This document shows, in pieces, positions 3,647 through 60,914 of a stretch of 64,000 nucleotides of DNA. Under the pieces are notes generated by a model. The model was not told the origin of the DNA. It saw only the letters and a program-made list of their open reading frames with translations, and did not search any database. Source of the stretch: Halobellus litoreus (GTDB lineage: Archaea; Halobacteriota; Halobacteria; Halobacteriales; Haloferacaceae); NCBI RefSeq assembly GCF_024464595.1, contig NZ_JANHAW010000001.1, positions 1,071,083 to 1,135,082 of the forward strand, in the 5' to 3' direction. How positions within the stretch are numbered: the first letter of the stretch is position 1; the number at the start of each line of letters is the position of its first letter. A program made the position numbers and the translations under genes.

Positions 3647-4939
3647 CTATTCGACGACGAGGCTCGTCCGCTCGTCGACGGCCTCCGCCTCCTCGAAGTC
3701 GCCGCCGCCCAGCAGGCCGCGGGCCGCCTTCTTCCCCCACTCGACGGCCGGCTGCGTGAACGTCGAAACCGCCGCGAGCTCGCCGTACAGGACGCACGCG
3801 GCTTCCATCTCGTAGAGCAGCGAGCCGAGGCTGTACTCGTCGACGGCGTCGATCTCGACGCGGATCGCCGGGACGCCCGACTCGACGAGGCTGGCCTCCG
3901 TCGCCTCGAACTCGGCGTCGAGCAGGTCGCCGAGCGAGGACCCGCCGAGGTACGACAGCCCGTCGAGGTCGGTCTCGGGGATCGGCCGGTCCGAGTAGTT
4001 GCGCGGCCGAACGAGCGTCACGAGTTTGTCGCGGGGGCCGGCCCGGTACAGTTGCAACTGCGAGTGCTGATCCGTGGCGCCGAGCGCCCGAGCGGGCGTC
4101 TGGCCGAGGCCGTCCTTCCCGAGGCTCTCCGCCCAGAGCTGCGCGAACCACTCGGCGAACGTCTCCAGGCGCTCGGCGTACGGCATCATCGCGTTCGTGA
4201 GCGCGCCCCGGCCCGCGAGCGCGTACGTCGTCGCGCCGTAGGCGTACGCCGGCGTCTCGAACAGCGATCCGGAGAGGCCGTCGGCGGCGTCCGCCGCGCC
4301 CGTTCGGATCGCCTCCAGGTCGTGGCCCTGGATCGCCGCCACCGCCAGGCCGACCGTCGAGAGCGCCGAGAACCGGCCGGGGACGCCGTCCGGGACCGAC
4401 AGCGAGGGGAGATCGTGCGTCGTCGCGAGCGACCTGAGGTTCCCGGACTCGCCGGTCGTCACGAACGTCCGCTCGGTCCAGTCGACGCCGGCGTCGGTCA
4501 TCGCCTCGCGGACGACGAGGAAGTTCGCGAGCGTCTCCGCCGTCGTCCCCGACCGGGAGACGACGTTGACGACTGTCCGGTCGAGCGGGAGCGAGTCGAG
4601 CAGTCGCGAGACGTGCGCGGGATCGACGTTGTCGAGGAAGTACGCCTCGGGGTCGTCGGGGCCGGCGAGGGCGTCGGCGAACGTCGCCGCACCGAGGGCG
4701 CTCCCGCCGATGCCGACCGTGAGCACCGCCTCCGCGTCCTCGAACGGAGCGACCGCGGCGCGGATCGCGTCCAGATCGACCGTGGAGGGGAGGTTCAGCG
4801 CCTCGTAGCCGTGTTCGTGAGCGTCGCGGCCGGCTTCGATCCGCTCGTGAGCGGCCGCTATCTGGTCGTCCAGCCGCTCCAGCGACTCCCGGGAGACGCC
4901 GGGCGTCGCGTCGAGTGAACTGCCGAGATCGACGTGCAT
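3647..4939 (-). CDS. pgi: Glucose-6-phosphate isomerase
   Basis: This cytosolic 430-residue enzyme interconverts glucose-6-phosphate and fructose-6-phosphate. It has two sugar-isomerase folds: VGIGGSALG at about 75-83, SRSGTTAET at 128-136 (phosphate-binding SIS motif), ATDQHSQLQLY with a catalytic-type His, and the C-terminal family signature QPAVEWGKKA at about 396-405. The length matches the shorter PGI form of haloarchaea and Gram-positive bacteria. It starts at ATG 4939-4937, since MHVDLGSSLDA matches the family start. It stands alone and faces the structured RNA copy A tail to tail. Confidence 0.96.
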   Translation of the reverse strand: MHVDLGSSLDATPGVSRESLERLDDQIAAAHERIEAGRDAHEHGYEALNLPSTVDLDAIRAAVAPFEDAEAVLTVGIGGSALGAATFADALAGPDDPEAYFLDNVDPAHVSRLLDSLPLDRTVVNVVSRSGTTAETLANFLVVREAMTDAGVDWTERTFVTTGESGNLRSLATTHDLPSLSVPDGVPGRFSALSTVGLAVAAIQGHDLEAIRTGAADAADGLSGSLFETPAYAYGATTYALAGRGALTNAMMPYAERLETFAEWFAQLWAESLGKDGLGQTPARALGATDQHSQLQLYRAGPRDKLVTLVRPRNYSDRPIPETDLDGLSYLGGSSLGDLLDAEFEATEASLVESGVPAIRVEIDAVDEYSLGSLLYEMEAACVLYGELAAVSTFTQPAVEWGKKAARGLLGGGDFEEAEAVDERTSLVVE

Positions 4940-51299: not shown

Positions 51300-52370
51300 T
51301 CAGCTCGTCGTCTGCTGTCGGTGGTGACGGCGGAGGACGCCGACTTTGTTCGCTACCGTCGCCGCCAGGTCCCGAAACGCCTCCGCAGTCTCCCCCGCGT
51401 CGCGGCAGACGATCGGCTCGCCGGCGTCGCCACCCGAACGGATCGCCGGATCCAGCGGGAGCGATCCGAGGTACGGAACGTCGACCGCGTCGGCGAGCGA
51501 TCGGCCGCCGTCCTCGCCGAAAATGTCGTGTGAATCCCCGCAACTGGGGCAGACGAACCCGCTCATATTTTCGACGACGCCCAAGACGTTGGTCCGGTAC
51601 TCGCCGAACAGCTCGACGCCGCGACGGGCGTCGTCCACGGCGACGGACTGCGGCGTGGTGACGACCACGGTTCCAGTGACGGGAAGCTGCTGAAGGACCG
51701 TCAACTGAACGTCACCGGTTCCCGGGGGGAGATCGACGATCAGGTAATCCAGCGACCCCCACGAAACGTCGCTGAACAGGTCGGTGAGCGTGTTCTGTGC
51801 GACCGGACCGCGCCAGACCACCGGATCGTCGTCGTCGATCAGCAGTCCGACGCTCATCAGTTCGAGCCCGTGGGCGGTCGACGGCTGGATCCGGTCCTCG
51901 CCGTCGACGGTCGTCACGTCCGGGTCGTCGTCGACACCGAGCATTCGAGGGACGTTCGGCCCGTAGACGTCGGCGTCGAAGAGCCCGACGTTCGCCCCGC
52001 GATCGGCCAGACCGGCGGCGAGGTTGACGGCGACGGTACTCTTCCCGACGCCGCCCTTGCCGGAGGCGACGGCGATCACGTTTCGAACGCCGGGCAGGAC
52101 CGACGATTCGGCGGCGTCGAACAGCGGGACGTGGGCCGAGAGTTCGACCTCGATTCCCGCCTCCTCGGCGACCGCACGGACGCGGTCCGCGATGGCGGAC
52201 TCGTCCGGTGCGTACGGTGCGCCGAGCGCGAGTTCGATGGCGGCCGTCCCGCCTTCGAGAGCGATGTCGGTGACGAGTCCGGCGCTGACGATGTCTGTGT
52301 CGAGCACCGGATCGTCGATGTCGCGGAGGCGATCACGGAGGTCGGCATCGGAAGTGGGTGTCGTGGTCAT
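51300..52370 (-). CDS. apbC: ApbC/Mrp-type P-loop ATPase, iron-sulfur cluster carrier
   Basis: The 356-residue protein starts at ATG 52370 (MTTTPTSDADLRDRLRDIDDP). Residues 1-90 form a MIP18/DUF59-like domain, and residues 95-345 the Mrp/NBP35 ATPase with deviant Walker A ASGKGGVGKST, LFDADVYGPNVPRM, VDLPPGTGD and a bridging-cluster CPSC motif. It carries and delivers Fe-S clusters. It lies 7 nt after the stop of the TorD-like chaperone gene, in the same direction, so it probably belongs to the molybdoenzyme operon, whose subunits need several 4Fe-4S clusters. Confidence 0.93.
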   Translation of the reverse strand: MTTTPTSDADLRDRLRDIDDPVLDTDIVSAGLVTDIALEGGTAAIELALGAPYAPDESAIADRVRAVAEEAGIEVELSAHVPLFDAAESSVLPGVRNVIAVASGKGGVGKSTVAVNLAAGLADRGANVGLFDADVYGPNVPRMLGVDDDPDVTTVDGEDRIQPSTAHGLELMSVGLLIDDDDPVVWRGPVAQNTLTDLFSDVSWGSLDYLIVDLPPGTGDVQLTVLQQLPVTGTVVVTTPQSVAVDDARRGVELFGEYRTNVLGVVENMSGFVCPSCGDSHDIFGEDGGRSLADAVDVPYLGSLPLDPAIRSGGDAGEPIVCRDAGETAEAFRDLAATVANKVGVLRRHHRQQTTS

Positions 52371-52377
52371 TGGGTGC

Positions 52378-53154
52378 TCACGGTGATTCGGGGTCGGACG
52401 GCCGCGGGTCGGCGGCGGCGAGTTCCTGTGCGTCCCACGCGGTGAACGTCCGAGCGATGCGAGCGATCGTGGCGAAGACGCCCTCGACCGTGTCGTGGCT
52501 CCCGACGGCCGCCTCGAACCGATCGAGCCACCCCAGTCGCGAGAGCGTTCGGGTCTGGAGTTCGCGGACGGCTTCGAGGCGGCCCTCGCTCGCACCGTCG
52601 TCGAGGAGGGCTGCCTCCCGTTCGCACAGCGCGCGCATAAACTCGAAGTACGCGGCCACGTGATCGGGGATGTCGTCCCCGCGTCGGGGCGTGAACCCGG
52701 CGGCGGCGTACAGCCGCGCCATATCGGCGGCCGGATCGCCGAGGAGTTCGCCGGCCTCGCCGGCGGTGTGATACCGCGAATCGGACTCGAACTCCTCGCT
52801 CGGGTCGGTCGCGTGCGCCGACGCGAACGGGGGGACGTAGTGGCTCCCCGGCACGACGAACAGGTTGTCGTACCCGATGGCGAGCGACTCGGCGTCGTGG
52901 TCGCCGCCGCCAAGTGCGGCCGTCTCGATGTCGACCGGGAGCGCGTCGGCGAGGGTGGCGAACGTGCCCCGGTCGATCGCCGCGGCGATCGCCTCCGTCT
53001 CGCCGTCGAAGGTCGCGGCCAGCACCCCATACAGGCGAGCGCGGGCCGTCGCCATCGCGGCGTCGTCCGAATCGGCCGGGTCCTCGGGAATCGCTGGATC
53101 GTCGTCGACCGGCGACGCGCCGGCACGGTCGTCGTCGCGTGCGTTCCGTTTCAT
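52378..53154 (-). CDS. dmsD: TorD/DmsD-family molybdoenzyme chaperone
   Basis: This 258-residue all-helical cytosolic chaperone inserts the molybdenum cofactor and holds the catalytic subunit until Tat export. The start ATG is 53154 (MKRNARDDDRAGA). The family core has RARLYGVLAATFDGETEA, YDNLFVVPGSHYVPPFASAHA (the conserved Pro-rich segment), AGEAGELLGDPAADMARLYAAAGF and PDHVAAYFEFMRALCERE. The N-terminal 30 residues are acidic and disordered. It lies 5 nt after the catalytic subunit stop and 7 nt before apbC. Confidence 0.9.
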   Translation of the reverse strand: MKRNARDDDRAGASPVDDDPAIPEDPADSDDAAMATARARLYGVLAATFDGETEAIAAAIDRGTFATLADALPVDIETAALGGGDHDAESLAIGYDNLFVVPGSHYVPPFASAHATDPSEEFESDSRYHTAGEAGELLGDPAADMARLYAAAGFTPRRGDDIPDHVAAYFEFMRALCEREAALLDDGASEGRLEAVRELQTRTLSRLGWLDRFEAAVGSHDTVEGVFATIARIARTFTAWDAQELAAADPRPSDPESP

Positions 53155-53159
53155 TCGGC

Positions 53160-56100
53160 TCACCGCCGCTCCACCTCGACGAAGGCGTCGTACTGTGCGT
53201 TGCTCCCGCCGACGAGGTCCGAGAGGCCGGTGTCGCCGAGTGCCTCGTCCAACGGTTGGACGTGGTTGATCGCGAAGCCGGCGTCGCGGCCCTTCGCGTA
53301 TCCGGCCTCCTCGGCCATCGGTTCGTCGAACTGGTAGGAACTGTGGCCGTCGGCCTCGACCGGCGGCCGCGTGTCGCCGCCGATGGTCTCGGCCGTCGCC
53401 CCGTCTCCGGTCCGGCCCCATCCCCACATCGCGCCGACGACGCCGGGGCGGATCCCACCCGTGACCATCGCGACAGCGTCGACGGTCTCGCGGCCGGCGT
53501 CGAGGACGATCTCGTCGCCGTTCTCGATGCCGCGTTCCTCGGCGTCCCGGGGGTTGATCCACACCGGGTTCTCCGGGCGGGTCTCGCGAAGCCACGGGCT
53601 GTTCTGGGTGCGGTGCATCCCCTGGGTCCGCGGCTTCCAGTTGATCAGCCGAAGCGGGCGCTCGCGCTCGTCGTCGCCGCTCACCGCGGCCTGCACGGTG
53701 CCGTCGTAGTGCTCGACGTCGGCGACCTTCGGGAGCGGGTCGAACCGCTCGCCGGTGAAGGAGTGTTTCCCGTTCGGGACGACTTCGCTGTAGAAATCGA
53801 CGCGCGATTCGAGTTTGTACCGCAGGTGCTCGCCGTCGTAGGCGTTCGAGTCGTCCCGGCGTTCGGCGTAGTCGTAGTCGTGACCGTGCTCGGCGAACGC
53901 CTCGTCGTAGTCGTCCGTCGGTTCCTCGAAGCGGCCGCCCCGGTTCAACACGGTGACCACCTTCGGCCACTCCTCGTCGGAGACCGCCGCCCGCCAGCGC
54001 GCTACGTCGAACTGGTCGCCGAGGCCGTTCTCGTGGCTCTCGCGGAACACCCGCAGTTCGTCCTCGCTCGCGTCTGCGACCGGATCGCGGGCGTACGCGA
54101 TGTTGGCCGCGAGCTTCAGGTAGAAGTCCTCGGCCCGTTCGAGCGGCCACAGGTTTCCGTCCGCGTCCGGGATCGCGTCATCGCCGACGCCGGGGAGGTC
54201 GAGCTCCGACCACAACTCGATCAGGACGTCCTCGAACGGGCGCGCGTCGGGAACGACCGAGACCGCCGGCTGGCTGATCTTCTCGTCTGCGAGCCGCTTG
54301 TTCGGGTAGGTGCCGAAGTTCTCCCACCGCTCGAGGTAGGTCGGCTCGGGCAGGATGTAGTCGGCGTACTGGCTCGTTTCACCGATGACGGTGTCGGCGG
54401 CGACGATCAGCGGGATCGTGTCGGTGTCCTCGAGAATCGCTGGGATCTCGTCGCCGCCGGCGACCGCCATCACGTGGTTGTTCGAGTACGGCCGAATGAA
54501 CAGCGCCTCGACGCCGTAGGGGTACTCCGCTGCGGCGCTGCCGTAGAGTTCCTGGGTCGCCTGCGGCGGCGCGACGGGGAACCACGGCCGCTTCGCCGGG
54601 TACCCGTCGTCGCGCTCGAACAGCGAGGTGTCCTCGTAGTTGACCCCGCCGCGCAGTAGCGGGATTCCCCACGGCGAATACCCGTCGGGCACCGTGCCGA
54701 GTTCGTACCGCCCCGACATCGTGTCGTAGCCCGCGTAGGGCGTGATCTGGCCGCCCTTCCAGTCGTAGTTCCCGATGAGGTGCTGGAGCGTGGCGATCGC
54801 TCGCGTGTTGTAGAAGCCGTTCGTGTGCTTGGCGGGGCCGCGGTACGCCATAATCGCCGCGCGCTTACCGTGACTGGTGAACTCGTCGGCGAGGTCGGCG
54901 ATCTGCTCGGCCGGGACGCCCGCCATCTCGGCGTACTCCGCGACAGTGTGCTCGAAGACGCGCTCGCGGTACTGGCTCCAGACGCTTCGAACCCCTGTCC
55001 CGTCGATAGCCACGTCGACGTCGAGGACCGCCGTCTCGACCTCGCTCGCGGGACGCGGCTCGCCGGTCTCCGCGTCGATCACGACGAAATCGTCGGCGGC
55101 GTCGGCGCCCTCGTCGACGAGTCCGAGGTCGCCGGCGCGGGCCTTCGGTCCCGACGGCTCGTCGACGAGGACGAGGTGGGTCGCGTCGCTCCACGTCGGT
55201 TCGTCGTCGTCGCTCGCAGCCGACCGCGAGGGGTTCTGGAGGTACGTCAGGTCGTGCCGGTCGTGCTCGATGATCCACCGCGCCATCCCGAGCGCGAGCG
55301 CCCCGTCGGCACCGGGTTCGACCGGCACCCACGTGTCGGCCTTCTCGGCGGTCTTCGAGAGCCGCGGATCGACGACGTCCATCCGCATCCCGTCCTCGAT
55401 GGCGTTCGTCAGCTTCGGCGCGAGCCACGTCGGCCCCTTGTTGGCGACCATCGGGTTGGTCCCCCACGCGATCAGGTACTCGCAGTTCTCGATGTCGGGG
55501 TACTGTCGCTTCTTCGGGGCGTCGTGGGAACGAACGTTTCCCATCACGCTCGAGACGCCGCAGGTGCCGGCGTGGTGGACGCTGTTTATCGATCCCAGCC
55601 CCTGATGCCAGAGGCGGTTACGGATGAAGTTGCGGCGGAACCCACCGACGTCGACGATCTGGTTCGACTTCGGTCCCAGGTCTGGGTGGTCGGTGTCGAT
55701 GAGTTCGTCGGCGTACTTCTCGTCGAAGTCCGCCTTCGACAGTTCGCCGTTCTGCACGGCCTCCCAGTCGCTCATCACCGCCTCCTGGGGAGCGTACCCC
55801 CAGATGTCTTTCAGCCCGGGATGCCCGAGTTCGTCGTCGCCGTCGAGGATGTCCTGAAGCGCCTGCTCCCAGGAGACCGTCTTCCACTCGCCCGATCCGC
55901 GCGGCCCGACCCGTTTCATCGGCTTGCGGACCCGGTAGCTGTCGAAGGCCGTCTGGATGCCCGCCTGTCCCTTCAGGCAGATCCGGCCGCCCGAGAGCGA
56001 CCAGCGGTCGCGGTCGACGTCGCCGCTCCCCTCGACGTCGCCCATCGCCACGTCCTCGGGATCGCTCCCGTAGGGGACCTGCGAGAACGGCTGCGTGTTG

Positions 56101-56414
56101 AGGAACGAGTAGGGGTTCCCCGCGAGCTTCCGGACGAGCGAACTGTACTCGCCGGTGCCGCTCCCCTCGGCGAGCCGTACCTTGATCGGACAGAACGTGT
56201 TGCACTGTCCGCAGGTCGTGTGGATCACGTCGCTCGCGTCGTACTCGCCGTACTCCTCGCCGACGTAGTGCTGCTCGCCGTCCGTCCACAGCTCGTTCAC
56301 GTCCATCTCGACCGCGGCGGTGCTGGCCGCCGCGACGAGCCCGATGCTCCCGGCCGCTTTGAAGAAGTCGCGCCGCGATATCTCGGCGCGATCGTCGGTG
56401 TCGTTCGTGCTCAT
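53160..56414 (-). CDS. Molybdopterin oxidoreductase catalytic subunit (DMSO/tetrathionate/polysulfide reductase superfamily)
   Basis: The 1084-residue exported enzyme has a Tat signal (SRRDFFKAAGSIGLVAAAS, about 13-31). A 4Fe-4S motif uses C68, C71 and C75 (TTCGQCNTFCP) plus C146 (GRICLKG), followed by the bis-MGD domains. The likely molybdenum ligand is Cys285 in HHAGTCGVSS; classic DMSO reductases use Ser. That points to a PsrA/TtrA/PhsA-type enzyme for sulfur compounds rather than true DMSO reductase. The C-terminal domain has NGDEIVLDAGRETVDAVAM. It overlaps the NrfD gene by 4 nt. Confidence 0.93.
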   Translation of the reverse strand: MSTNDTDDRAEISRRDFFKAAGSIGLVAAASTAAVEMDVNELWTDGEQHYVGEEYGEYDASDVIHTTCGQCNTFCPIKVRLAEGSGTGEYSSLVRKLAGNPYSFLNTQPFSQVPYGSDPEDVAMGDVEGSGDVDRDRWSLSGGRICLKGQAGIQTAFDSYRVRKPMKRVGPRGSGEWKTVSWEQALQDILDGDDELGHPGLKDIWGYAPQEAVMSDWEAVQNGELSKADFDEKYADELIDTDHPDLGPKSNQIVDVGGFRRNFIRNRLWHQGLGSINSVHHAGTCGVSSVMGNVRSHDAPKKRQYPDIENCEYLIAWGTNPMVANKGPTWLAPKLTNAIEDGMRMDVVDPRLSKTAEKADTWVPVEPGADGALALGMARWIIEHDRHDLTYLQNPSRSAASDDDEPTWSDATHLVLVDEPSGPKARAGDLGLVDEGADAADDFVVIDAETGEPRPASEVETAVLDVDVAIDGTGVRSVWSQYRERVFEHTVAEYAEMAGVPAEQIADLADEFTSHGKRAAIMAYRGPAKHTNGFYNTRAIATLQHLIGNYDWKGGQITPYAGYDTMSGRYELGTVPDGYSPWGIPLLRGGVNYEDTSLFERDDGYPAKRPWFPVAPPQATQELYGSAAAEYPYGVEALFIRPYSNNHVMAVAGGDEIPAILEDTDTIPLIVAADTVIGETSQYADYILPEPTYLERWENFGTYPNKRLADEKISQPAVSVVPDARPFEDVLIELWSELDLPGVGDDAIPDADGNLWPLERAEDFYLKLAANIAYARDPVADASEDELRVFRESHENGLGDQFDVARWRAAVSDEEWPKVVTVLNRGGRFEEPTDDYDEAFAEHGHDYDYAERRDDSNAYDGEHLRYKLESRVDFYSEVVPNGKHSFTGERFDPLPKVADVEHYDGTVQAAVSGDDERERPLRLINWKPRTQGMHRTQNSPWLRETRPENPVWINPRDAEERGIENGDEIVLDAGRETVDAVAMVTGGIRPGVVGAMWGWGRTGDGATAETIGGDTRPPVEADGHSSYQFDEPMAEEAGYAKGRDAGFAINHVQPLDEALGDTGLSDLVGGSNAQYDAFVEVERR

Positions 56415-57682
56415 TCGTGGTCACCTCCCGAAAGCGGCGTCAGCGGAAGCAGCTCCGCCCCGACCGTGTAGAGCAGGAAGCCGACGCCGATGATGCCGAT
56501 GCTCGTCCCCCACTCGACGGGCGTGGGGAAGTACGACCCGTGCGGGAGCCCCTCCAGCACGGGGGTGATCTGTGCGGGTATCACGATGTTGAACCGGACC
56601 GCGACGACGCCGACGACGGTACTCAACCCGGCGAGCACCATCGCCGACGGCGTCCGTCGCCAGGCGCGCTTGCTGAGAAGCACCATCGGGAACACCCAAC
56701 TGGCCCCGACCATGAACCACCAGAACGACCACGACATCTCGCCGAACAGGACGACGAGCCACGTCTCGACAGCGTGCGGGTGGAAGCTCGTGAACGCGAT
56801 CAGCGCCTCGATGGCCGTGAGGGCGACGTCGATGACGATGAAGCCCAGCAGCAGTTGGGCGAGTTGATCCAGGAGGTCCCGGTCGACGGCAGCCCCGTCG
56901 AACAGTCGCGTCCGGAGGACGTAGATCATCATCACCAGCGCCGTTCCGCTCAACAGCGCCGAGACGATGAATATCACCGGGAAGAGACCGCTGTTCCAGT
57001 ACGGGCGGGCCTTCGAGACCGCGAACAGCACGCCCGTCCCACCGTGGACCATAAAGATCGCGAGCGGAATCCCGACGATCCCGACGCGTTTGAGCCAGCG
57101 CTCGTCGACGGCTCGCGACGCCTCGCTCGTGTCGACGCGGCCGACCGCGAGCAGCCGGTAGAGCGTCGCCCGCGGTCCGTCGAGCCGCGTCGCGAGGCGG
57201 GCGAGATCGATCCGCATCGAGAAGTACAGCTCCGCGACGAGGATCCCGATGTACGCCACGTAGGCGTGGACCTCCCACGAGAGCGCGGAGGTGAGTTGCC
57301 GCCAGACGAACGGGTAGTACATCCGGTCCATCCGCCCGAGGTCGATCCAGACGAACAGCAGCGCTACCCCCATACTGATGATGGCCGCGAACAGCGCGTC
57401 GCGGTCGATTCGGTGCATCGCCCCGATGTCGAAGACGTTCGCCAGCGTGCTCACGAGGAACGCGCCGGCCGAGAGGCCGACGAAGTAGATGTAGAAGGCG
57501 ACCCACGCGCCCCACGGAACGACGCTCGTGAGGTTGGTGCTCGCCATCCCCCGCGTGAGCCGCAGGTACGTCGCGTACGCGCCGCCGGCGACGAGCACGG
57601 CGACGAAGGCGTACCAGGCGAGCCGTAGCCGGTCGTCTTCGAACCCCGGAGCGAACTCGACATGTGAACCTTGCGTTGCCAT
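56411..57682 (-). CDS. NrfD/PsrC-type membrane anchor subunit
   Basis: The 423-residue membrane protein anchors the enzyme and takes electrons from quinol. It has about nine hydrophobic segments, including PWGAWVAFYIYFVGLSAGAFLVS, the PsrC-type signature region, and EMSWSFWWFMVGASWVFPMVLLS. It is longer than minimal NrfD, with a cytosolic loop at about 175-195 (RVDTSEASRAVDERWLKR). It follows the Fe-S subunit by 4 nt and overlaps the catalytic subunit gene by 4 nt. The set Fe-S/NrfD/Mo is the PsrABC/TtrBCA arrangement. Confidence 0.93.
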   Translation of the reverse strand: MATQGSHVEFAPGFEDDRLRLAWYAFVAVLVAGGAYATYLRLTRGMASTNLTSVVPWGAWVAFYIYFVGLSAGAFLVSTLANVFDIGAMHRIDRDALFAAIISMGVALLFVWIDLGRMDRMYYPFVWRQLTSALSWEVHAYVAYIGILVAELYFSMRIDLARLATRLDGPRATLYRLLAVGRVDTSEASRAVDERWLKRVGIVGIPLAIFMVHGGTGVLFAVSKARPYWNSGLFPVIFIVSALLSGTALVMMIYVLRTRLFDGAAVDRDLLDQLAQLLLGFIVIDVALTAIEALIAFTSFHPHAVETWLVVLFGEMSWSFWWFMVGASWVFPMVLLSKRAWRRTPSAMVLAGLSTVVGVVAVRFNIVIPAQITPVLEGLPHGSYFPTPVEWGTSIGIIGVGFLLYTVGAELLPLTPLSGGDHE

Positions 57683-57686
57683 CGGC

Positions 57687-58721
57687 CTATTTGAGGTAGT
57701 AGACGTTGGGGTCGGTCCCCTCGTCTTCTTTCAGTTGGAACGCGCGAGACGAACTGGCCATCTGTGCCACGTCGCTGTCGGGGTCGTCGAGGTCGCCCAT
57801 ATTCCGGGCGTCGCCGATGCAGGTCTCGACGCAGGCCGGCTCTTCGCCGCGCTCCAGCCGGTGCGTGCAGAAACTGCACTTTCGGATGTTGCCGATCGGC
57901 GACTCGCCCTCCTCGCGTGGCCCCCGGTCGACGCCGTATTCGGGACTCGTCACCTCGCCGGCCCCGTCGACCTCCTCGTCGTAGTTCTCGCCGAAATCGA
58001 AGTACCGCGCGCCGTACGGACAGGCGATGTTGCAGTACCGGCAGCCGATACAGCGGTCGTAGTCGATGTTGACGACGCCGTCGTCCATCTTGTACGTCGC
58101 CGAGACCGGGCACACCTGCACGCAGGGCGGGTTGTCGCACTGCATACACGGGCGCGGGACGTTCGTTCGCGTGACGTTCGGGAACTCGCCGTGTTCCTCC
58201 TCCATCACGACGTTGTACGAGACGCCCGGCGGCGTTCGGTTCTCGGACTTACACGCGACCGTACACGAGTCGCAGCCGACGCACTTCTGGAGGTCGATCA
58301 CCATTCCCCACTTCTCGTCGCCCGCGCCGATGCCGCCCTCGGAGCCGTCGCCGTCGACCTGCGCGGCTTCCATCGAAACAGCGTCCATCGATCCGACGGT
58401 GCAGCTCAGCGACTCGGCCGTCTCCGTCGAGACGGTCTGGTCGCCGGCGTCGACCGCCGGGTTCGGCGTCTCGCGATACGCGTCACCGAACTCGGCGGCG
58501 GCGGCCTCGTCGTACTTCTCCCAGTAGTCGTCGCCGGAGAGTTCCCCGCGCGCGACCCGCTGTGCGTCCTCGGCCATCGCGATACCGAGGTCGGTGTCCG
58601 CCTCGACGTCTGCGAGCTCTTCCCGCGGGTCGGGTCGCTCGTTCTCCACCATCGCGTCGAGGTCGTCCGTCCCGACATCGGGGATGCCCGGGAGGGCGCC
58701 CCCGTCGTCTGCGGAGCTCAT
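57687..58721 (-). CDS. Iron-sulfur electron transfer subunit with four 4Fe-4S sites (DmsB/PsrB/TtrB-like)
   Basis: The 344-residue protein starts at ATG 58721 (MSSADDGGALPGIPDVG). The first 130 residues are acidic with no recognised fold. The ferredoxin-like core begins at MVIDLQKCVGCDSCTVACKSEN and continues with RPCMQCDNPPCVQVCPVSATYK, CIGCRYCNIACPYGARYF and CSFCTHRLERGEEPACVETC, giving four clusters. It passes electrons between the NrfD anchor and the molybdenum subunit. It is the first gene of the operon, divergent from the regulator. Confidence 0.93.
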   Translation of the reverse strand: MSSADDGGALPGIPDVGTDDLDAMVENERPDPREELADVEADTDLGIAMAEDAQRVARGELSGDDYWEKYDEAAAAEFGDAYRETPNPAVDAGDQTVSTETAESLSCTVGSMDAVSMEAAQVDGDGSEGGIGAGDEKWGMVIDLQKCVGCDSCTVACKSENRTPPGVSYNVVMEEEHGEFPNVTRTNVPRPCMQCDNPPCVQVCPVSATYKMDDGVVNIDYDRCIGCRYCNIACPYGARYFDFGENYDEEVDGAGEVTSPEYGVDRGPREEGESPIGNIRKCSFCTHRLERGEEPACVETCIGDARNMGDLDDPDSDVAQMASSSRAFQLKEDEGTDPNVYYLK

Positions 58722-58831
58722 CGCCACCACCCGGTATCGGTCGCGCCGTCGACGGTCGGCCGGGGTCCCGCCGGACGGTTGGTCGTGTGGGTCATACACC
58801 TCAATGTACGCAGACGGTCGTGGAAAGCCCG

Positions 58832-58850
58832 ATACCAATACTGTTTGAAC
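58832..58850. promoter_or_regulatory. Operator-like direct repeat 1 in the molybdoenzyme control region
   Basis: ATACCAATACTGTTTGAAC, whose first 16 bases recur exactly 53 bp further on. It lies 111 bp before the Fe-S subunit ATG. The core ACCAATACTGTTTG fits ACC(7)TTnG, close to the haloarchaeal bop/Bat upstream activating sequence as I remember it (ACCcnactagTTnG). Confidence 0.65.
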
Positions 58851-58884
58851 CGGTCGGGCTCCGCGAAGACACCCCATATCGGGC

Positions 58885-58904
58885 ATACCAATACTGTTTG
58901 GAAC
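58885..58904. promoter_or_regulatory. Operator-like direct repeat 2 in the molybdoenzyme control region
   Basis: ATACCAATACTGTTTGGAAC, sharing ATACCAATACTGTTTG with repeat 1. The start-to-start spacing of 53 bp is about five helical turns, so both sites would face the same side of the DNA. It lies between the operon and the divergent regulator. Confidence 0.65.
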
Positions 58905-58960: not shown

Positions 58961-58966
58961 TTTATG
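58961..58966 (+). promoter_or_regulatory. TATA-like box of the regulator gene
   Basis: TTTATG lies 24-29 nt before an ATG at 58990 that opens a 26-codon upstream frame, which then overlaps the regulator start. Confidence 0.45.
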
Positions 58967-58989: not shown

Positions 58990-59070
58990 ATGAACTGGTC
59001 GTGCCGAGGCGGACGCACGGTCGACGAACCCGGGGCGTTCGACCGTCGAGAACGGACACGGATCGCATGA
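58990..59070 (+). CDS. Candidate 26-residue leader peptide overlapping the regulator start
   Basis: The frame begins MNWSCRGGRTVDEP and stops with TGA at 59068-59070, overlapping the regulator ATG at 59067-59069 in an ATGA arrangement. Its ATG sits at the expected transcript start from the TATA-like box. The first nine bases ATGAACTGG are identical to the start of the regulator itself (MNW). Both length and arrangement resemble the candidate leader before RPA. Translation is not demonstrated. Confidence 0.4.
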   Translation: MNWSCRGGRTVDEPGAFDRRERTRIA

Positions 59071-60914
59071 ACTGGATCATCGGCCTCTCGATCGGACTCC
59101 GGCTGCTCGGCGTCGTCTACTCGATCCTGCTGCTCGCCCGCACCCGAGACCGTCGATTCGGCTTCCTGACGCTGCTTTTGTCGTTCATGGCGCTTCGACA
59201 ACTGCTCACCGTGCAGACGGCGAGCACCGGGCTCGAAGAACTCCCCGGCCTCGTCGTGAGCACGCTCGCCTTGCTGACGGTGTACTACTTCTCCGAATAC
59301 ATCGAGGAGGAAACCGCCATCAAGACGCAACTGCAGACGGTGAACGAGCGGCTTCGCGGCTTTCAGAAGGCCATCGAACACGCCGGACACGCGATCTTCC
59401 TCACCGACACGGACGGGACCATCGAGTACGCGAACCCGGCCGTCGAGTCGGTCACCGGATACGAACCGGACGAGGTGACCGGAGAGAACCCGCGGATCTG
59501 GCAGTCAGGAACGCACGACGAGGCGTTCTACGCGGAGCTCTGGGAGCAGATCGAGTCGGGGTCGGTGTGGGAGGGCGAACTCACGAACCGACGGAAATCG
59601 GGCGCGCTCTGCTGGGTCGACACCACCATCGCGCCGATCACCGACGGCGGCGACGTTGAGCGGTACGTCGCGATCGAACGCGACATCACCGAGCGAAAGG
59701 AGCGCGAGATGCGGATCGAGGATCAGAACGAGCGGTTGACGCTGCTGAACAACACGAACGAGGTACTCCGCGACATCAACCGCGAACTGGTCGCCGCGTC
59801 GACGCGCCAGGAGATCGAGTCTGCCGTGTGCGAACGGTTCGCTCAGTCCGACCTCTTCGACGTGGCCTGGATCGGGTCCCGAGGGCTCGTCGACGGGACA
59901 GTGAGTCCGCGCGCGTGCGCCGGCACCGACCGCGAATCGCTCGACGGTCACATCGAGCGGCTGTGCGCCGCCGATCCGACGCCGATCGAGCAGGCGCTGG
60001 ACGAGCAGCAGCCCGTGTTCACCGAGCGAGAGAACGACCCGTTGCAGGCGGCCGGCGAGACACGGAGCGTCGTGGTTCCGCTCACTTACCGCGGTGCGGA
60101 GTACGGCGTCCTCGTCGCCGTGACTAACCAGGCGAACGCGTTCGATTTGATCGAACTGAACATCTTCGCCGAACTCGGCGGCACCGTCGCGGACGCGATC
60201 AGCGCCGTCGAGTCAAAGCGGACGCTCGCTTCCGACAGCGTCACCGAACTGACGTTCCAGTTGGCGGGCATCGACGAGCCGTTGGCGAACATAGCCGACC
60301 AGCTCGACTGTACGGTCACCGCCGAGCACATCGTCGACGACGGCGACGGCGATCGTGTCCAGTACGTCACCGTCACCGACAGCGACCCGGAAGCCGTCAC
60401 CGAGTACGTGAACAGAGCCGACGGCATCGACAGCGCACAGCACGTTTGCACGCACGGGGACCGTGCGTTGTTTCGGCTGTCGATCGGCGAGCGGTCCATC
60501 GTCGCGACGCTGGCACAGTACGGCGCGGCCATCGAATCGCTGTCGCTCACCGGAGCGAGCGGTGAACTGGTCGCACAGGTCGCGAGCTCGAACGACGTCC
60601 GATCCGTCGTCGACGCGCTCCGGACGAGGTACGACGACCTGACGCTGGTCGCACAGCGGGAGTGCGAGCGGGACGTGCAGACCGAAGCCGCCTTCCGGGA
60701 GCGGCTGTCGGCGGCACTGACGGACCGACAACGCGAGGCGGCACGGACCGCGTACTTCGCCGGGTTCTTCGAGTGGCCGCGGGAGCACAGCGGCGAAGAG
60801 GTGGCGTCGATGATGGACATCTCACAGACGACGTTCACGCAGCACCTCCGGGCGGCCGAGAACAAGCTCTTCGCCGCCCTGTTCGACGAGACGATGGGGA
60901 ACCGAACGGGGTGA
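59067..60914 (+). CDS. Bat/DmsR-like transcription regulator (membrane, PAS, GAF, HTH-10)
   Basis: The 615-residue protein starts at ATG 59067 (MNWIIGLSIGLRLLGVVYS) with two or three N-terminal helices (about 1-75). A PAS domain follows (about 95-215, HAGHAIFLTDTDGTIEYANPA to YVAIERDITERKERE), then a GAF domain (about 235-385). Next are the bacterioopsin-activator region (about 390-545) and a C-terminal HTH-10 domain (LTDRQREAARTAYFAGFFEWPREHSGEEVASMMDISQTTFTQHLRAAENKL, given here as known motif words only: LTDRQREAARTAYFAG, MMDISQTTFTQHLRAAE). It is divergent from the molybdoenzyme operon, like dmsR in Halobacterium, and is its likely activator. Confidence 0.9.
   Translation: MNWIIGLSIGLRLLGVVYSILLLARTRDRRFGFLTLLLSFMALRQLLTVQTASTGLEELPGLVVSTLALLTVYYFSEYIEEETAIKTQLQTVNERLRGFQKAIEHAGHAIFLTDTDGTIEYANPAVESVTGYEPDEVTGENPRIWQSGTHDEAFYAELWEQIESGSVWEGELTNRRKSGALCWVDTTIAPITDGGDVERYVAIERDITERKEREMRIEDQNERLTLLNNTNEVLRDINRELVAASTRQEIESAVCERFAQSDLFDVAWIGSRGLVDGTVSPRACAGTDRESLDGHIERLCAADPTPIEQALDEQQPVFTERENDPLQAAGETRSVVVPLTYRGAEYGVLVAVTNQANAFDLIELNIFAELGGTVADAISAVESKRTLASDSVTELTFQLAGIDEPLANIADQLDCTVTAEHIVDDGDGDRVQYVTVTDSDPEAVTEYVNRADGIDSAQHVCTHGDRALFRLSIGERSIVATLAQYGAAIESLSLTGASGELVAQVASSNDVRSVVDALRTRYDDLTLVAQRECERDVQTEAAFRERLSAALTDRQREAARTAYFAGFFEWPREHSGEEVASMMDISQTTFTQHLRAAENKLFAALFDETMGNRTG

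Follow-up and report, generated by a model that had tools for sequence, protein, structure and literature searches.

Haloarchaea encode many HTH-10 regulators of the Bat type (the genome studied here holds 28 HTH_10 matches), and to our knowledge few operators are known for them. The closest described element is the upstream activating sequence (UAS) of the bop promoter, a target of a Bat-family regulator, the consensus of which we take to be ACCnnACTAGTTnGG, its fixed letters presumably being ACC-N7-TTnG. As at the locus described here, the DmsR and NarO systems place the gene for a regulator with a Bat-like HTH beside an anaerobic molybdoenzyme operon, that of DMSO and of nitrate reductase, respectively. 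DmsR is described as a positive regulator of the dms operon, and the TATA box of bop as departing from the consensus (both in PMC1447603). DmsR and NarO are reported without PAS and GAF domains (PMC11218638). Additionally, PMC10062603 reports CGAAYATDKTYG as a motif of haloarchaeal denitrification promoters.

Here, we present an analysis of a 16-bp direct repeat in a 64,000-nucleotide stretch of DNA from Halobellus litoreus (hereafter the window), located between an operon encoding Fe-S, NrfD-like and molybdoenzyme subunits and a divergent gene for a Bat/HTH-10 sensor-regulator. Judged from comparative sequence analysis, the repeats very probably form a tandem operator (UAS) through which this regulator would activate the operon. 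Our literature search found no publication describing this operator or an operator for this operon, and a search with the motif spellings returned one match, a Geobacillus phage paper which, by its listing, has no evident haloarchaeal link and is taken as chance. With its strict spacing rule, adjacent candidate activator, TATA-less promoter and leader ATG, the locus offers a sharp and portable test system in which a poorly understood type of archaeal gene switch becomes directly testable.

Operon, regulator gene and leader reading frames

The features of the locus are compiled in Table 1. Family searches place the operon's molybdoenzyme as only TtrA-like: the NCBIfam equivalog for TtrA, of the tetrathionate reductase TtrABC, has a cut-off of 1750 bits, and the enzyme scores 400.5. 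The regulator has the domains of a Bat-like sensor, with HTH_10 (PF04967) at 69.3 bits against a Pfam cut-off of 23.1, BAT (PF15915) at 138.8 bits against 25.8, and both PAS_9 and GAF_2 above cut-off; its PAS and GAF domains set it apart from DmsR and NarO as these are portrayed in PMC11218638. It is well separated from the paralogs in its own genome, the best full-length-type paralog being 35% identical, and a comparison of its HTH region with solved structures gave no credible match.

Table 1. Window coordinates of the operon, the divergent regulator gene and the elements between them
Feature	Position	Strand	Remarks
TorD/NarJ-type chaperone gene	52378..53154	-	start codon inferred from reading frame
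Molybdopterin oxidoreductase gene, 1084 aa, nearest NCBIfam model TtrA (below cut-off)	53160..56414	-	
NrfD-like membrane subunit gene	56411..57682	-	profile matches
Fe-S subunit gene, 4Fe-4S, DsrO/TtrB/ArrB-like, first in operon	57687..58721	-	profile matches
Operon leader ORF, 25 aa (MTHTTNRPAGPRPTVDGATDTGWWR)	58718..58795	-	TGA overlaps Fe-S gene ATG; own ATG at 58795
Operon core-promoter region, -36 to -19 from leader ATG	58814..58831	-	no A/T-rich TATA box
Proximal operator site (putative)	58832..58847	-	CAAACAGTATTGGTAT in operon direction; first base 52 bp before leader-ORF ATG
Distal operator site (putative)	58885..58900	-	CAAACAGTATTGGTAT in operon direction; 53 bp upstream of proximal site
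TATA-like TTTAT, regulator promoter	58961..58965	+	about 25-29 bp before regulator leader-ORF ATG
Regulator leader ORF, 26 aa	58990..59070	+	TGA overlaps regulator ATG; own ATG at 58990
Regulator gene, 615 aa: hydrophobic N-terminus, PAS, GAF, BAT, HTH_10 (Bat family)	59067..60914	+	

Each of the two divergent transcripts seems to open with a leader ORF. On both sides the stop codon of this ORF overlaps the start of the following gene, and the ATGA overlaps suggest translational coupling. Termination-reinitiation at such overlaps has been shown in Haloferax volcanii for annotated gene pairs (PMC6728339), whereas in the putative coupling proposed here the upstream partner is a leader ORF. Short leader ORFs (13-27 aa) recur in relatives on both sides. 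No Rfam match to an RNA element was found between window positions 58500 and 59300. Downstream of the chaperone gene, a frame at 51300-52380 on the minus strand reads as an Mrp/ApbC-type ATPase, a name given by reading the sequence only, and may be part of the operon. The distribution of the operon is patchy: the order sample contains six further genomes of the genus to which the window belongs, all of them lacking the operon, and one ortholog (L012) is plasmid-borne.

The repeat pair and its conservation

The word ATACCAATACTGTTTG is present on the plus strand in two exact copies with a start-to-start distance of 53 bp, just as the first-pass annotation had described it, and the copy pair extends to 22 bp at 91% identity. 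Scanning the 64 kb window with up to three mismatches returned these two matches only, compared with a mean of 0.02 in 100 dinucleotide shuffles of the window, none of which (0/100) held two. The 14-nt core, ACCAATACTGTTTG, has exactly two exact copies in the 3.86 Mb genome, both belonging to this pair. A genome-wide search with the degenerate motif at two or fewer mismatches yielded 14 matches, of which 2 are exact and 12 have two mismatches. As the reversed control yielded 17, the additional matches are attributed to chance, and a wider regulon was rejected on this ground.

Orthologous loci were collected by two routes. The first provided 43 loci in named genomes, of which the 26 haloarchaeal ones were used and the 17 bacterial ones (L029-L045) were left out of the site survey, and the second found 39 of 392 genomes of the order to be operon-positive. 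The resulting 56 haloarchaeal loci, minus 16 with an identical upstream region, gave 40 distinct loci, and nine regions were added to complete the 39 operon-positive genomes, for a total of 49 regions that include some close relatives (e.g. L156 and L158 with L024). When these were searched on the operon strand with the relaxed core C.[AG]....TAT.GG, the two-site layout was found in 48 of the 49, with the proximal site 51-53 bp before the leader ATG in all 48. Among the 40 distinct loci this distance is 52 bp in 36 and 51 or 53 bp in the remaining four. The orientation of the sites relative to the operon is conserved as well. The motif is therefore kept at orthologous loci; a lack of such conservation had been named beforehand among the outcomes that would refute the operator reading.

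The spacing between the two sites falls into two narrow classes, namely 42 bp (7 loci) and 51-53 bp (51 bp in 1 locus, 52 bp in 24 and 53 bp in 16), and in none of the 48 loci are the paired proximal and distal sites spaced by 43-50 bp. Given that B-DNA has 10.5 bp per turn, these classes correspond to four and about five helical turns. Changes between the classes number at least three on the Fe-S tree and four on the regulator tree. In Halapricum-type loci the distal site is diverged but present at exactly 42 bp, and Halohasta (L019) carries a third site another 42 bp upstream. The rule was also recovered independently: a scan of the 392 genomes for two exact-type cores at any spacing of 31-61 bp, in which the exact core misses most of the 39 operon-positive genomes, gave one match in each of eight genomes, all eight at this operon and spaced by 42, 51, 52 or 53 bp, and the reversed control gave none.

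In the operon direction, the relaxed core of the conserved sites is C.R....TAT.GG. Its dyad symmetry is partial, being confined to the outer positions, with the inner positions matching no better than the column composition predicts, and a perfect dyad was consequently rejected as the form of the site. Near-perfect dyads (6/7 pairs) occur in three distal sites, those of L160-L162.

Core promoters and proposed activation

The two divergent promoters differ in composition. Taking a 7-mer with at least 6/7 A/T between -36 and -19, anchored on the leader ATG, as an A/T-rich box, none of the 40 operon promoters has one, compared with 25 of the 31 regulator promoters scored in the same way, these being the ones with an overlapping leader ORF found. 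Where the operon's TATA box would be expected, an ACGCTC-like element is conserved instead, with C at one position in 40/40; the copy in the window, GGGCTT, is among the more divergent. The element hints at non-standard TBP/TFB recognition or at an activator-dependent core promoter. The near-constant placement of the proximal site relative to the leader ATG leads us to infer that operon transcription starts at or beside this ATG.

In the mechanism we propose, the mRNA would be leaderless, with its start at or next to the leader ATG, so that the proximal site would span roughly -52 to -37 and immediately precede the core promoter. Both sites would be occupied by the regulator on the same face of the helix, probably as contacting dimers, and once bound it would recruit TBP/TFB to a promoter that would be weak by itself. 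The PAS/GAF sensor part, together with the membrane-like N-terminus, might report a redox or acceptor signal, and ribosomes finishing the overlapping leader ORF (ATGA) would reinitiate to translate the Fe-S subunit.

The same geometry could in principle serve the opposite sign of control, with a repressor, or the same regulator acting as one, shutting off the operon promoter when oxygen is present. Since the proximal site borders directly on the core promoter, a protein bound there could also block TFB/TBP, and in H. volcanii NarO is reported both as an activator of nar and as a nitrate-dependent repressor of dms (PMC10062603). We nevertheless regard repression as unlikely, as 40/40 operon promoters are without an A/T-rich TATA box, which fits the need for an activator, and a site upstream of the core promoter holds the place of the bop-type activating sequence.

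On the operon strand, many loci share an A/T element of the TAT type with G's behind it, located 20-28 bp past the first base of the distal site (window 58872-58880); the proximal site has no equivalent of it. This element could represent a former TATA box or an alternative one.

Link to the adjacent regulator

The repeats had been put forward as a candidate operator for the neighbouring Bat/HTH-10 regulator, and the layout conserved in 48/49 regions at 42 or 51-53 bp lends support to this proposal of a putative operator. A divergent homolog of the HTH-10 regulator adjoins the operon in 40/40 distinct loci and in the eight further site-bearing loci, that is, in 48/48. In G010 (L169), the sole region without sites, the operon is present and no HTH-10 regulator was found within the 10 kb fetched; its divergent neighbour is instead an AsnC-type HTH gene with a TRASH domain (3764-4369, minus strand), possibly a replacement of the regulator. 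The joint absence of sites and regulator comes from this single genome. Taken together, the co-occurrence is strong circumstantial evidence that would tie the sites to the HTH-10 regulator.

A further possibility is that the sites are bound by another DNA-binding protein, encoded elsewhere, and that the adjacent HTH-10 gene only travels with the operon. The genome offers candidates in its 28 HTH_10 matches and many other regulators, and binding by the adjacent regulator is itself predicted from sequence. We give this explanation slightly less credit than repression, considering that sites and adjacent regulator occur together in all 48 loci and are both gone at G010, where the AsnC/TRASH-type gene stands instead, and that the genome has no further sites, as would be expected for a local and dedicated regulator.

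The recognition helix was also compared with the sites in 42 of 44 regulators, leaving out L009 (frame interrupted) and L011 (duplicate). Following Q[ST]T[FY], 20 regulators carry T, S or H, and each of these goes with A at position 1 of the proximal site; the other 22 carry L or M, and for 19 of them this position is not A. Striking as it looks, this covariation is confounded by descent, amounting to only two phylogenetically independent comparisons, and therefore proves nothing; it was set aside as evidence. The loose frame CC.AA.......GGT was also counted around the other HTH_10 genes of the genome, in loci with the HTH and not the promoter at their centre; its 8 matches in 88 kb only slightly exceed the 2 of the reversed control.

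The geometry of the sites would tie them to the operon and not to the regulator's own promoter. The first-pass annotation had argued from the direction of the sites, which point toward the regulator when read as ACC-N7-TTnG, that autoregulation is possible in addition to control of the operon. The argument from direction falls, given that sites of the bop type are found before opsin ATGs in either orientation, and autoregulation is left without specific support because the fixed distance is the one to the operon start. A chiefly autoregulatory role of the repeats, acting on the regulator gene, is thus very improbable: they do lie in the shared divergent intergenic region, but the distance from the distal site to the regulator start varies from 89 to 216 bp (32 loci), whereas the proximal site lies 51-53 bp before the operon leader ATG in 48/48, and the regulator promoter has a TATA-like box of its own. 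Hardly credible at all is a chance word or a recent duplication of a functionless one, as the identical window copies might suggest, since 48/49 loci keep the layout at Fe-S identities down to about 69% with an unconserved spacer, and dinucleotide shuffles of the 49 regions, with 0.045 core sites per region, reproduced it in 0/19,600 cases.

Relation to the bop-type activating sequence

The resemblance to the bop UAS noticed in the first-pass annotation holds for the outer letters, as ACCAATACTGTTTG agrees in both copies with ACC-N7-TTnG, taken here as the fixed letters of the consensus. The ACTAG letters inside the bop UAS are not found, the window sites reading AATACTG there, and no exact copy of ACCnnACTAGTTnGG exists in the window genome. 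This consensus occurs in 72 of the 392 genomes, and 30 of all its matches were examined at the locus level. Five of these 30 lie 55-58 bp before the ATG of PF01036 opsin genes, in both orientations, close to the 51-53 bp found here in 48/48 loci; the consensus thus marks a genuine site. A sixth (L149) precedes a short frame that resembles an opsin start by reading, and others stand before genes for chemotaxis transducers or DUF4397 proteins, or before no evident gene.

The two systems thus have in common a Bat-family regulator, the outer letters (CC.A......T.GG, or ACC-N7-TTnG) and a position about 50-58 bp before a start codon; in addition, the operon promoter here is without a normal TATA box, and that of bop is reported to deviate too. 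They differ in the inner letters (CAGTAT here, ACTAGT in bop), in the phased pair of sites (once three) and in the orientation, which is fixed here and goes both ways among the opsin sites. As outer letters and position are common and the inner letters differ, the window sites are, by their sequence, bop-UAS-like and not members of the bop UAS. By reading, neither copy fits the denitrification/NarO-type motif CGAAYATDKTYG, the conserved core being C.R....TAT.GG.

Tentatively, and with somewhat less than even confidence, we suggest that Bat/HTH-10 operators share the frame CC-N-A-N6-T-N-GG, with the inner letters choosing the regulator, and that the phased pair replaces a TATA box by positioning TFB/TBP on the ACGCTC-type core, which would make these promoters a distinct, activator-dependent and TATA-less archaeal class with obligatory leader ORFs. 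If the frame is true, the targets of many orphan HTH-10 regulators could be predicted.

Among the other bop-type matches, the one in L129 (around position 1500) overlaps the end of a gene that reads as a Bat-like HTH gene, with the ATG of an MCP gene following at a distance of 51 bp, and those in L127 and L140, from two genomes, are located about 63 bp before DUF4397-domain genes.
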